From an uncultured Nitrosomonas sp. (GTDB lineage: Bacteria > Pseudomonadota > Gammaproteobacteria > Burkholderiales > Nitrosomonadaceae), in the NCBI GenBank assembly GCA_902826115.1, contig CADEDO010000002.1:62001-126000 (forward strand): a DNA stretch of 64,000 bases. The letters run 5' to 3'. The notes under the pieces were generated by a model. It did no database searches and had not been told where the DNA came from. It saw nothing but the letters and a program-made list of their open reading frames with translations. This document shows positions 47,940 to 51,035 of the stretch, in pieces; position 1 is the first letter of the stretch; the number at the start of each line of letters is the position of its first letter. Position numbers and translations under genes: made by a program.

Positions 47940-48506
47940 ATGACGATTAAATCAGATAAGTGGATCCGCCATATGGCACAAGCGCATGGCATGATTGAAC
48001 CTTTTGAACCCGACCAAATTCGCGAGAAAGACAACCAGCGCATCGTTTCCTATGGCACTTCCAGCTATGGTTACGATATCCGTTGCTCGGATGAATTCAA
48101 GTTATTCACCAATATTAATTCCACGATCGTCGATCCGAAGAATTTTGATTCCAATTCATTTGTTGATGTAAAAAGTGACATTTGCATTATTCCTCCCAAT
48201 TCGTTTGCGCTGGCGCGTACTGTTGAATACTTTCGCATACCGCGCAACATCCTGACCATTTGTTTGGGCAAATCCACCTACGCCCGGTGTGGCATCATCG
48301 TCAATGTCACCCCTTTTGAACCCGAGTGGGAGGGTTATGTCACGTTGGAGTTTTCCAACACCACCCCCCTGCCCGCCAAGATTTATGCCAACGAAGGGGT
48401 AGCACAAGTCATTTTCTTTGAATCGGATGAAGTCTGTGAAACTTCCTATAAAGATCGGGGAGGGAAATATCAAGGGCAACAAGGAGTGACATTGCCAAAA
48501 ATATGA
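47940..48506 (+). CDS. dcd: dCTP deaminase
   Basis: Deaminates dCTP to dUTP, feeding dTMP synthesis with thyA about 3 kb away. 188 aa. [13 protein letters not shown] (about 38-50), [11 protein letters not shown] (catalytic Ser/Arg region) and [15 protein letters not shown] with the catalytic Glu are typical. The metG / apbC-dcd order is common in Betaproteobacteria. Confidence 0.96.
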
Positions 48507-48601
48507 GCGTCTCATTGACAAGCTTTGTCAGGATAGGCTGCGCGCCTGTGCACATTTGAGCCTGTGCGGTTGCGTGGACCAATCCTTACAAAGTCGATTA
48601 C

Positions 48602-48961
48602 ATGTCACTAACGTCTGCGCTGGCATTCGGTTTCGACAAAAATACTGCTCCTCAGACTGTGCACCGACAGCACTTAATCTCTATCTCAATTCACGCAGCC
48701 TCAGTCCTTTCAATGATCGTATTTGCTCAGTACCTCGGATAAAGCACGCAGGTCCTTTCACACTTCATTCTCAACAACCCACTATGCATCGCGGAGAAAA
48801 TCTATTTCATTTCCAGTTTAATGAAAAAACAGATAATTACCTGCGATTTTATTGGCATTGATCATTCTTCTTATCGGTTATATTTGGATCAATGTGGCGT
48901 ACTGGATTTCATTACGCTCAGAGGCGAGCAGTTGAAAATCACTGAATGCTTAAAACTGTAG
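48602..48961 (+). pseudogene. possible gene debris, TonB-like start and membrane segment
   Basis: Codons 48602-48742 spell a 46-residue start with a basic segment and a hydrophobic helix (HRQHLISISIHAASVL), reminiscent of the N-terminal anchor of TonB-type proteins, and then stop. A frame at 48837-48935 reads PAILLALIILLIGYIWINVA, a strong membrane helix without a start codon. The pieces are in different frames and none has a ribosome site. I read this as decayed coding sequence of unknown origin; chance hydrophobicity is possible. Confidence 0.3.
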
Positions 48962-49084
48962 AAATTTCATAAACTTTTCTTAAAAAAACTCGTCTAATGG
49001 AGTATAAATGGCAATTGCACAACTTATTGTTTTTTTAAATAAACTTTTAGTAAATTAAAAATTAATTTTAACGTAAAAAAATGC

Positions 49085-49112
49085 TTGATTTGCCCGCGAT
49101 GCAGACTATAAT
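49085..49112 (+). promoter_or_regulatory. sigma70 promoter of the leader-decarboxylase unit
   Basis: TTGATT (49085-49090) and a perfect TATAAT (49107-49112) are 16 bp apart. The 130 bp upstream are extremely AT-rich, like an UP element. The transcript would start near 49119, about 40 nt before the small reading frame. Confidence 0.65.
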
Positions 49113-49157
49113 GCGTGCAAATTAAAAACACATGAATTCACCGATAAGGAGGTCATC

Positions 49158-49223
49158 ATGATAAGTATCAAGAACTTTTTTGCCCCAGCTGATTTAGTAA
49201 ACATTCATATTCCTGTTACGTAG
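49158..49223 (+). CDS. 21-codon reading frame, candidate leader peptide
   Basis: MISIKNFFAPADLVNIHIPVT, then TAG. It is preceded by AAGGAGGT 5 bp before the ATG, a near-perfect complement to 16S rRNA and stronger than the site of the next gene. It ends 22 bp before the start of a PLP decarboxylase, in a different frame. A translated short ORF here resembles regulatory leader peptides such as SpeFL, the ornithine-sensing leader of E. coli speF. Alternatively it is a remnant: KNFFAPADL recalls the N-terminal helix of ornithine decarboxylases. Function is inference. Confidence 0.55.
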   Translation: MISIKNFFAPADLVNIHIPVT

Positions 49224-49245
49224 CCATTTTTAAAGGAAAGCACTC

Positions 49246-50421
49246 ATGCGAACATCCTCTTCTACAGTTCAAAAATCTGATCAATCAGAAGTTCTATTCG
49301 ATACCCACCATGAAGTTAGTCTGGATTTTAAGCACGTCAAGAACGCCTTAAAAGATGGCTATCAGCGCCCATTTTTATTAGTCGACAGCAATATTATTCG
49401 ACAAAAAGCTCGGCGCTTTAAAGCAGCAATGCCTCGAGTTCACCCTCATTATGCAGTCAAAGCCAATCCTGATGCTCGCGTATTAACAGCGCTGATTGAG
49501 GAAAATGTCGGCTTCGAGATTGCTTCTATTGCCGAACTTGATCTGCTCATGCAACTTGGCGTACCGGCAGCTGAAATTTTTTATAGCAATCCGATGAAGT
49601 CTCGCGCTTACCTGGAATATGCAGCATCCAAGGGAGTCGAATGGTATGTATTGGACAGTGTAGAAGAATTACGCAAAATAGTCAGTGTCAAGCCAGATGC
49701 AAAGATGTATTTACGCATCGATACCCCCAATATTGGTAGCGATTGGCCATTAGCCGGTAAATTCGGTACACACCTCGGGGATATTCATGAGATTATTCAC
49801 GAAGCTGTAGAGCTGAAAGCAGACTTAGCCGGAGTAACCTTTCATGTAGGCTCGCAATGCCGCAATCCTCAGAATTGGCGTGTTGGTATTGAACGTGCCA
49901 AAAAGGTCTTTGCAGATATGCAGATGGCAGGCTTGAATCCCCGATTACTGAATATTGGAGGAGGCTATCCGGTTCGCCACGTCAAACCTATTCCTTCCAT
50001 TGAAATCATTGCTGATGTCATTAATGAAGCCATTGCTGATTTACCAGATAACATACGCATCATGGCTGAACCTGGTCGGTATTTAGTATCCGACTCGGCT
50101 TATTTTGTCTGTCGGGTTGTCGGCAATGCAACTCGCAATGGAAAACGCTGGATGTACTGGGATGCTGGTATGTTTGGCGGCGTGATAGAAATTACTGAGG
50201 GTTTGCGTTATGAAATTCTCACGGATCGCAAAGGCAGTAACATTCCTTGGTCGGTTGCCGGTCCAACTTGCGACTCAGTCGATATTCTGGTGCATGATTT
50301 AATGCTACCGAATGATGTACAAGAAGGCGATTTCATCTACATTCCTAACGCCGGTGCTTATACCACTGCTTATGCCAGCAATTTCAATGGCTTTCCACTG
50401 CCTGATGTTAAAGTGATATAA
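49246..50421 (+). CDS. type III PLP-dependent decarboxylase (ornithine decarboxylase-like)
   Basis: A fold-type III decarboxylase of 391 aa that probably makes putrescine from ornithine; lysine or carboxynorspermidine are possible. HYAVKANPD (68-76) holds the PLP Lys72, HVGSQC and GGGYPVRH bind the phosphate, MAEPGRYLV follows, and GPTCDSVDIL carries the catalytic Cys342. The CDS motif matches ornithine decarboxylases rather than diaminopimelate decarboxylase. The N-terminal 35 residues are poorly conserved. AAAGGAAAG precedes the ATG. A strong terminator follows at 50473. Confidence 0.88.
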   Translation: MRTSSSTVQKSDQSEVLFDTHHEVSLDFKHVKNALKDGYQRPFLLVDSNIIRQKARRFKAAMPRVHPHYAVKANPDARVLTALIEENVGFEIASIAELDLLMQLGVPAAEIFYSNPMKSRAYLEYAASKGVEWYVLDSVEELRKIVSVKPDAKMYLRIDTPNIGSDWPLAGKFGTHLGDIHEIIHEAVELKADLAGVTFHVGSQCRNPQNWRVGIERAKKVFADMQMAGLNPRLLNIGGGYPVRHVKPIPSIEIIADVINEAIADLPDNIRIMAEPGRYLVSDSAYFVCRVVGNATRNGKRWMYWDAGMFGGVIEITEGLRYEILTDRKGSNIPWSVAGPTCDSVDILVHDLMLPNDVQEGDFIYIPNAGAYTTAYASNFNGFPLPDVKVI

Positions 50422-50472
50422 GCTTCCAATAGAATCTGAATCGCACGTCTTGATGTTGTGTAGACAGTCAAT

Positions 50473-50510
50473 AAAATGGCGAACTGATAAAACAATCAGT
50501 TCGCCATTTT
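50473..50510. terminator. bidirectional rho-independent terminator
   Basis: A perfect 16-bp stem, AAAATGGCGAACTGAT (50473-50488) with its complement (50495-50510), around loop AAAACA. T-rich flanks occur on both sides. It lies between the convergent decarboxylase and folA. Confidence 0.9.
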
Positions 50511-50525
50511 CTTCAAGGATTTAAG

Positions 50526-51035
50526 CTACATCTTGCGATCCAATATCACAAAATGATATTCGAAAATATCATTGCCTTCGGAGAAATGCTGATCGCGCTG
50601 CGCTTCCTGCCATTCATTTGAATCAAATTCCGGAAAAAAAGCATCTCCGTCAAAATCCTTCTGAATTTCGGTAATATACAGTCGCTGACAATACGGCAGA
50701 GTTTGCCGATAAAGATTCTCACCGCCGATAATGAAACTTTCATGCTGGACTGCGTTATTTTCCTGGCATTTCTGCAGCGCGCTTTCAATCGAATGAACGA
50801 CAATGGCTCCAGGTACCTCAAAAGTTTCCTGATGAGTCATAATGATATTGGTTCTACCGGGTAAAGGGCGGCCAATAGACTCATAAGTTTTACGCCCCAT
50901 TACAATAGGATGTCCCATTGTCAGGGACTTAAAATGTTTTAAATCAGCTGGTAAGTGCCAGGGTAATTGATTTTTCTGACCAATTACCCGATTTCTGGCC
51001 ATTGCCACCAGGATAGACAAGCGTGGTGGTGTCAT
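50526..51035 (-). CDS. folA: dihydrofolate reductase
   Basis: NADPH-dependent reduction of dihydrofolate to tetrahydrofolate. 169 aa. [20 protein letters not shown] (about 19-38) includes the active-site Trp and Asp, and [15 protein letters not shown] and the IIGGENLY loop bind NADPH. The first codons overlap the thyA stop by 4 bp (ATGA), so the two are translationally coupled and act in consecutive steps of dTMP synthesis. Confidence 0.96.

Follow-up and report, generated by a model that had tools for sequence, protein, structure and literature searches.

SpeFL, the leader peptide of the ornithine decarboxylase gene speF, is described in PMC8429421 as arresting at termination, where it inhibits RF1-mediated release. 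In the account given for Salmonella in PMC6386406, the frame (ORF34/SpeFL) has 34 codons, its stop is given as UGA, and it acts through Rho and RNA refolding; the leader and speF start at nt 32 and 516, respectively, and are thus 484 nt apart. The 34-codon leader MdtU precedes the spermidine exporter genes mdtJI of E. coli, and its stop is placed 106 nt upstream of mdtJ in PMC7815308. In alpha-proteobacteria, the odc1 motif (uORF-25-1) is presented in PMC8632094 as an 11-aa frame with a UUG start located 2 nt before the main UUG start, and as carrying a conserved hairpin and pseudoknot. The speF RNA element RF00518 lies before an ornithine decarboxylase gene in alpha-proteobacteria, according to PMC1273637. 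Among eukaryotes, the uORFs of HOL1 (PS-stop) and AZIN1 (PPW) are summarized in a review (PMC11550727) as cases of repression of the main ORF by polyamine, through slower release or elongation. Here we describe a leader of 21 codons that precedes an ornithine-type decarboxylase gene in an uncultured Nitrosomonas sp.; the window analyzed was a stretch of 64,000 nucleotides.

Anatomy of the locus

The features of the locus are as follows.

47940-48506, + strand: dcd, the gene upstream of the ODC promoter (name given from its sequence)
49085-49112, + strand: promoter, TTGATT-16-TATAAT (10 of 12 consensus matches)
49146-49153, + strand: leader Shine-Dalgarno sequence AAGGAGGT (from sequence); with the CATC after it, this forms, on the same strand, the block AGGAGGTCATCATGA, which is conserved in the compared upstream regions
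49158-49223, + strand: leader peptide ORF, 21 codons plus TAG, MISIKNFFAPADLVNIHIPVT (from its ATG start and coding selection)
49206-49223, + strand: kept leader tail, His-Ile-Pro-Val-Thr-UAG (CAT ATT CCT GTT ACG TAG; from the locus comparison)
49232-49237, + strand: ODC gene Shine-Dalgarno sequence AAAGGA, weaker than that of the leader and 9-14 nt past the leader stop (from sequence)
49246-50421, + strand: ornithine-type PLP decarboxylase (ODC), 391 aa (from Pfam and the nearest structures)

A sequence-only reading of this DNA had pointed out the 21-codon ORF and its AAGGAGGT site, 22 nt before the decarboxylase gene and in another frame, and the coordinates confirm this arrangement. The gap between the leader stop and the ODC ATG (49246) is 22 nt, and the two start codons are 88 nt apart (49246-49158), which places the leader and ODC in different frames. 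A sigma70 promoter had also been proposed. Our promoter scan returned six promoter-like sites where 5.2 would be expected by chance, and the 10/12 match alone therefore carries little weight; however, 108 of the 114 tail-bearing loci described below have an exact TATAAT in the 120 nt preceding the leader ATG, and in 107 of them it was located at 27-63 nt before the ATG. The leader had likewise been said to have a stronger ribosome site than the enzyme gene, which holds in the window and in most relatives: the match to the anti-Shine-Dalgarno sequence was longer for the leader than for ODC in 90/114 loci, but not longer in 24/114.

The enzyme matched the Pfam families Orn_Arg_deC_N and Orn_DAP_Arg_deC. 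Among solved structures, a lysine/ornithine decarboxylase was the nearest, and viral arginine and eukaryotic ornithine decarboxylases came next. No NCBIfam equivalog scored above its cut-off; the name ODC therefore rests on the nearest relatives, and the substrate is putative. A search of the same genome with PF02675, the one AdoMet decarboxylase family used, gave no match, which tentatively favors putrescine over spermidine as the end product, although this genome does contain two spermine-synthase-like matches (L253 and L254). Burkholderia and Cupriavidus are stated in a review (PMC10385936) to contain putrescine and 2-hydroxyputrescine. Frames with dcd-like ends also precede ODC in L192, L194, L196, and L206, so the neighborhood (47940-50421 in the window) seems old; it is no obvious polyamine operon.

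Survey of leaders upstream of ODC genes

The enzyme or a paralogue was detected in 124 of 125 family genomes at E 1e-3, and the loci from named records, the best 80 of 92, were mostly from Nitrosomonas, Nitrosospira, and Nitrosovibrio. Our collection of 151 ODC loci comprised 85 deduplicated loci and 66 drawn from the order and family, for which the ODC start codons were set by a chosen rule; species repeats persist between the collections, and the 151 loci are thus not independent. L096, in which the contig begins inside ODC, was left out. Leaders were recognized by the tail rule [HDQL][ILTV]P[VEL]T, which makes Pro19 and Thr21 invariant by construction and biases pN/pS at codons 17-21.

A tail-bearing leader was found in 114/151 loci. 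The tail was HIPET in 51 of these, HIPVT in 46, HTPVT in 5, and of other types in 12; the leader had 21 codons in 100/114 (13-24 in the rest) and ended in TAG in 113, with a single TAA. With the exact head GGAGGNCATCATG as the sole criterion for choosing leaders, the tail was present in 69 of the 79 distinct ones, all with TAG, and the ten without it ended in TAG (6), TAA (2), or TGA (2). The gap between leader and ODC ranged from 12 to 48 nt across the 114 loci and was 26 nt or less in 110. Since the gap takes all three frames (52, 33, and 29 loci by length modulo 3), no fusion product is selected. A leader-ODC fusion through frameshifting is ruled out by the same varying frame relation.

The head AGGAGGTCATCATGA was kept at the nucleotide level, spacer included. 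Under the strict rule, 12/151 loci had the head only and 25/151 had neither head nor tail. Of 24 head matches, one (L113) belonged to an unrelated longer ORF and another (L114) was cut by a contig edge. The strict rule scored three loci with the AAGGGGGTCATC head (L105, L106, and L207) as having neither element, and L207 was reassigned by hand to the head-only class. A head (AAGGAGGTCATCATGA or AAGGGGGTCATC) without the HIPVT tail was observed in L103-L107, L110, L189-L192, L196, L199, L205, L207, and L210. In L103/L189 and L190 it is followed by a 7-codon frame ending in RNY and then a stop, and in several other tail-less lineages the frame runs into the ODC start. The retention of the head in tail-less lineages suggests that it has a separate role.

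Two further observations concern atypical loci. In L231, the tail VNIHIPVT-TAG is out of frame with the likely ATG and lies beside T-runs; this is a broken leader or an assembly error. Four loci of family f18 (L213, L214, L215, and L217) contain ODC-like genes with neither head nor tail and share an upstream block of their own, GTGACTTGAAAAAGC.TTGATAGGAG, possibly another regulatory element.

Breadth across lineages

From the order, 399 genomes were drawn evenly, and 68 of them carried the enzyme at E 1e-100. One of these was left out since its ODC was cut at a contig edge (G153), and 67/68 were examined, with G027, G038, and G084 represented by the records L035, L034, and L048, respectively. 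Of the 67 genomes, 37 had the tail, and these belonged to 10 of the 17 families surveyed; 9 genomes had the head only and 21 had neither. Head-only loci included 5/6 in family f22 and 2/2 in f9. The occurrence of the head (AGGAGGTCATCATGACA) without the tail in 9/67 genomes, and of neither in 21/67, indicates that an ODC can do without the tail; the head may serve a separate function, one for which the termination-sensor model set out below gives no account.

When 140 genomes of the order were searched with a strict tail pattern, 11 matches were obtained, all upstream of ODC, versus one for the reversed control; the ODC of one matching genome (G244) contains 100 consecutive N. A looser tail pattern occurred once in the genome of the window. 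Neither the strict head nor the strict tail was found at ten remoter decarboxylases (34-46 percent identity) from nine other genomes of the class. The strict head AGGAGGTCATCATGACAAG, a form that misses the window too, had no match in 299 genomes of the phylum. Our survey with RF00518 gave 37 matches in 36 of 299 genomes, and 30 loci were fetched. Within positions 1301-2100 of these 30 alpha-proteobacterial loci, the head and the tail were each found in 0/30, and a scan of the correct strand over this interval found no frame of 12-30 codons preceded by a Shine-Dalgarno sequence. Identity with the alpha-proteobacterial speF element was rejected, since RF00518 has no match at this locus and 0/30 of its loci carry the head or the tail.

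Coding selection on the leader frame

For 79 unique 21-codon leaders, pairs with a divergence of 35 percent or less gave a pN/pS of 0.33 in frame, compared with 1.39 and 1.08 in the shifted frames. To remove most double counting, we used 37 non-overlapping nearest pairs, which gave 0.29 in frame versus 1.15 and 1.12 when shifted. In frame, codons 2-21 of these pairs contained 135.2 nonsynonymous differences over 1725 sites and 134.8 synonymous differences over 495 sites (Fisher p 6e-27), and the differences fell at third, first, and second codon positions 143, 67, and 60 times, respectively. Because the tail rule biases codons 17-21, codons 2-16 were tested separately, and pN/pS was still 0.34 (p 2e-17), versus 0.92 and 0.90 in the shifted frames. 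The best-kept residues outside the tail were Asn6 (66 of 79), Asp12 (65), Asn15 (63), Leu13 (62), and Ser3 (61); within the tail, the residues not fixed by the rule were also well kept (His17 in 73 and Ile18 in 74), and position 20 was Val in 44 and Glu in 34.

The search for a conserved small frame that the sequence-only reading had called for was thus positive, with tail leaders in 114/151 loci and a pN/pS of 0.29 (0.34 for codons 2-16), and its proposal of an independent leader ORF distinct from SpeFL is strongly supported by this codon-level selection. Judged by these substitution patterns, the leader is a conserved gene, neither a chance frame nor a relic.

Constraint at the stop and final codons

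All 61 distinct leaders of the mostly Nitrosomonadaceae set ended in TAG, compared with 17 of 78 ODC genes in that set. The last leader codon was ACG in 54/61 distinct leaders, whereas 209 of the 1198 Thr codons of those ODC genes were ACG; the leaders are mutually related, so neither count represents independent events. Of 95 distinct leaders, 72 had C directly after the stop. RF1 is the factor that reads UAG, and in E. coli a stop followed by C is weak. The retention of both the stop and the final codon suggests that termination is the event that matters, although it may be the nucleotides of ACG-UAG-C, and not the peptide, that are constrained.

RNA structure and database searches

The region folded began 30 nt upstream of the leader and ended 40 nt inside ODC; the mean z-score was +0.87 relative to shuffled sequences, and 0/83 sequences scored below -2. 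RNAalifold returned 0.0 for gapped (52 and 83 sequences) and gapless (85 and 38 sequences) alignments; column-shuffled alignments also scored about 0, so this test has no power either way. Pairing between the leader and the enzyme ribosome site, which the sequence-only reading had raised, found no support in single sequences, which folded no better than shuffles, and the consensus test was powerless on the point. No terminator-like site was detected in 48500-50600, no Rfam family, RF00518 included, matched this interval at E up to 1, and RF00518 had no match elsewhere in the same genome. A riboswitch or structured RNA is not supported, given the lack of an Rfam match and the single-sequence z-score of +0.87. 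Features of an amino-acid attenuation leader were also not found: the peptide contains no regulatory codon run, and the interval 48500-50600 has no terminator-like site.

The leader of the window matched no Pfam family at E up to 0.001, a search in which a 21-aa query has little power, and five leaders matched no NCBIfam family at E up to 10. No description of the leader was found in the open-licence PMC literature, and passages from PMC3711429 and PMC10746267 do not bear on it.

A model for the leader and its alternatives

Three features recurred widely in our comparison: the tail [H/D]-I-P-[V/E]-T, the UAG stop, and the proximity of the leader to ODC. The features general to termination-arrest leaders (TnaC and SpeFL), that is, a conserved C-terminus and stop, a short 5' ORF, and coding selection, are also present here. 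On balance, and by a slight margin over an even chance, we consider the leader to be a cis-acting nascent-chain sensor that would slow RF1 release at UAG, with the paused ribosome repressing ODC. The strong leader site, just past the transcript start, would load ribosomes that end at UAG, where the tail would render RF1 release slow or conditional. Counted from the first P-site base, the leading edge of a ribosome lies about 15 nt downstream. A ribosome paused with Thr21 (49218-49220) in its P site would thus cover the mRNA to about 49233; it would reach the ODC ribosome site and overlap the initiation stretch (from about 49226) for the start at 49246. By this overlap, slow release would repress ODC, whereas after prompt release ribosomes could initiate or re-initiate 22 nt downstream. 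Putrescine or ornithine would be the likely signal and would place the first step of polyamine synthesis under feedback. The 22-nt spacing suggests that the ODC ribosome site is blocked directly, rather than through pairing by the leader. In its mode of action the leader would resemble SpeFL or MdtU, although it departs from SpeFL in sequence and spacing.

Translational coupling without sensing, in which the leader would simply deliver ribosomes to the weak ODC site for re-initiation 22 nt on, is unlikely. The short gap and the longer ribosome-site match of the leader (90/114 loci) are what coupling would lead one to expect, but coupling requires no particular C-terminus, final codon, or stop, and these are widely kept.

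We regard as somewhat less likely again that a stalled leader induces ODC as enteric SpeFL does, with ornithine as the signal and RNA refolding or a block to Rho as the means. The leader holds the same place before an ODC, and SpeFL too, as characterized in PMC8429421, arrests at termination by blocking RF1. However, the two ORFs here are separated by 22 nt, compared with starts at nt 32 and 516 in the Salmonella transcript as given in PMC6386406; moreover, the interval 48500-50600 contains no terminator-like site, and single sequences fold weakly. The consensus-structure test, which had no power, does not count against RNA refolding.

A reading in which conservation acts on the AGGAGGUCAUCAUGACA head, as an RNA or protein-binding site, and the ORF is secondary is improbable. 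Such a site would account for the kept head nucleotides, including the spacer TCATC, and for their persistence after loss of the tail, but it leaves the codon-level selection on codons 2-16 and the tail unexplained. Marginally more improbable is a trans-acting small peptide, for example a regulator that binds ODC and is made from the same mRNA: purifying selection on the peptide would fit, but a free peptide gives no reason for the kept UAG or ACG, and the tail pattern was met beside ODC only, both in the 140 genomes and in the genome of the window. Finally, a chance ORF or the frame-broken relic of a decarboxylase N-terminus that had earlier been entertained is refuted by the in-frame pN/pS of 0.29 (1.15 and 1.12 shifted) and by the leader's own start, C-terminal tail, and stop, which recur in 10 families.

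The termination-sensor model, if true, would mean that many beta-proteobacteria, including ammonia oxidizers, control the first polyamine step by an undescribed nascent-chain switch, and that such a switch may need no RNA refolding. With 21 codons, a near-fixed UAG, and 79 natural 21-codon sequences, the system is unusually compact and suits the question of how release factors are slowed by a peptide acting with a small metabolite. It also raises the question of whether bacteria and eukaryotes have converged on stalling near a stop-codon proline to sense polyamines.

Comparison with known systems

Like SpeFL/ORF34 of speF in gamma-proteobacteria (PF10940, DUF2618), the leader is a short ORF near the transcript start before an ODC. 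SpeFL, as reported, has 34 codons, a long gap, and UGA in Salmonella, whereas the leader has 21 codons, a 22-nt gap, and UAG; the PF10940 profile did not match the leader of the window, a 21-aa query that gives this search little power. SpeFL induces its target, whereas the leader would probably repress by occlusion. MdtU resembles the leader in that conservation is highest at the C-terminus, and PMC7815308 ties it to the polyamine response; by the same account, however, MdtU acts with Rho on an exporter, whereas here the gene is an ODC and the gap is 22 nt. The odc1 motif is, as set out in PMC8632094, also a conserved small peptide before an ODC, but the leader departs from it in its 21 codons, ATG start, and 22-nt gap. 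RF00518 likewise stands before a gene of the ODC family, but no covariance match to it was found at this locus. The HOL1 and AZIN1 uORFs, as reviewed, share with the leader a proline near the peptide end; they depend on eukaryotic scanning and queueing, and we claim no homology.

We tentatively suggest, as a possibility that falls short of an even chance, that the leader is a third, independently evolved ODC-controlling peptide besides gamma-proteobacterial SpeFL and alpha-proteobacterial odc1, in which putrescine or ornithine would be sensed as RF1 terminates at P-[V/E]-T-UAG, with repression of ODC through a directly blocked ribosome site, making it a bacterial counterpart of the eukaryotic proline-stalling uORFs. 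As far as searches of the open-licence PMC literature reach, the leader is a device of a known type, with a distinct anatomy, whose sequence family is new and unrelated.
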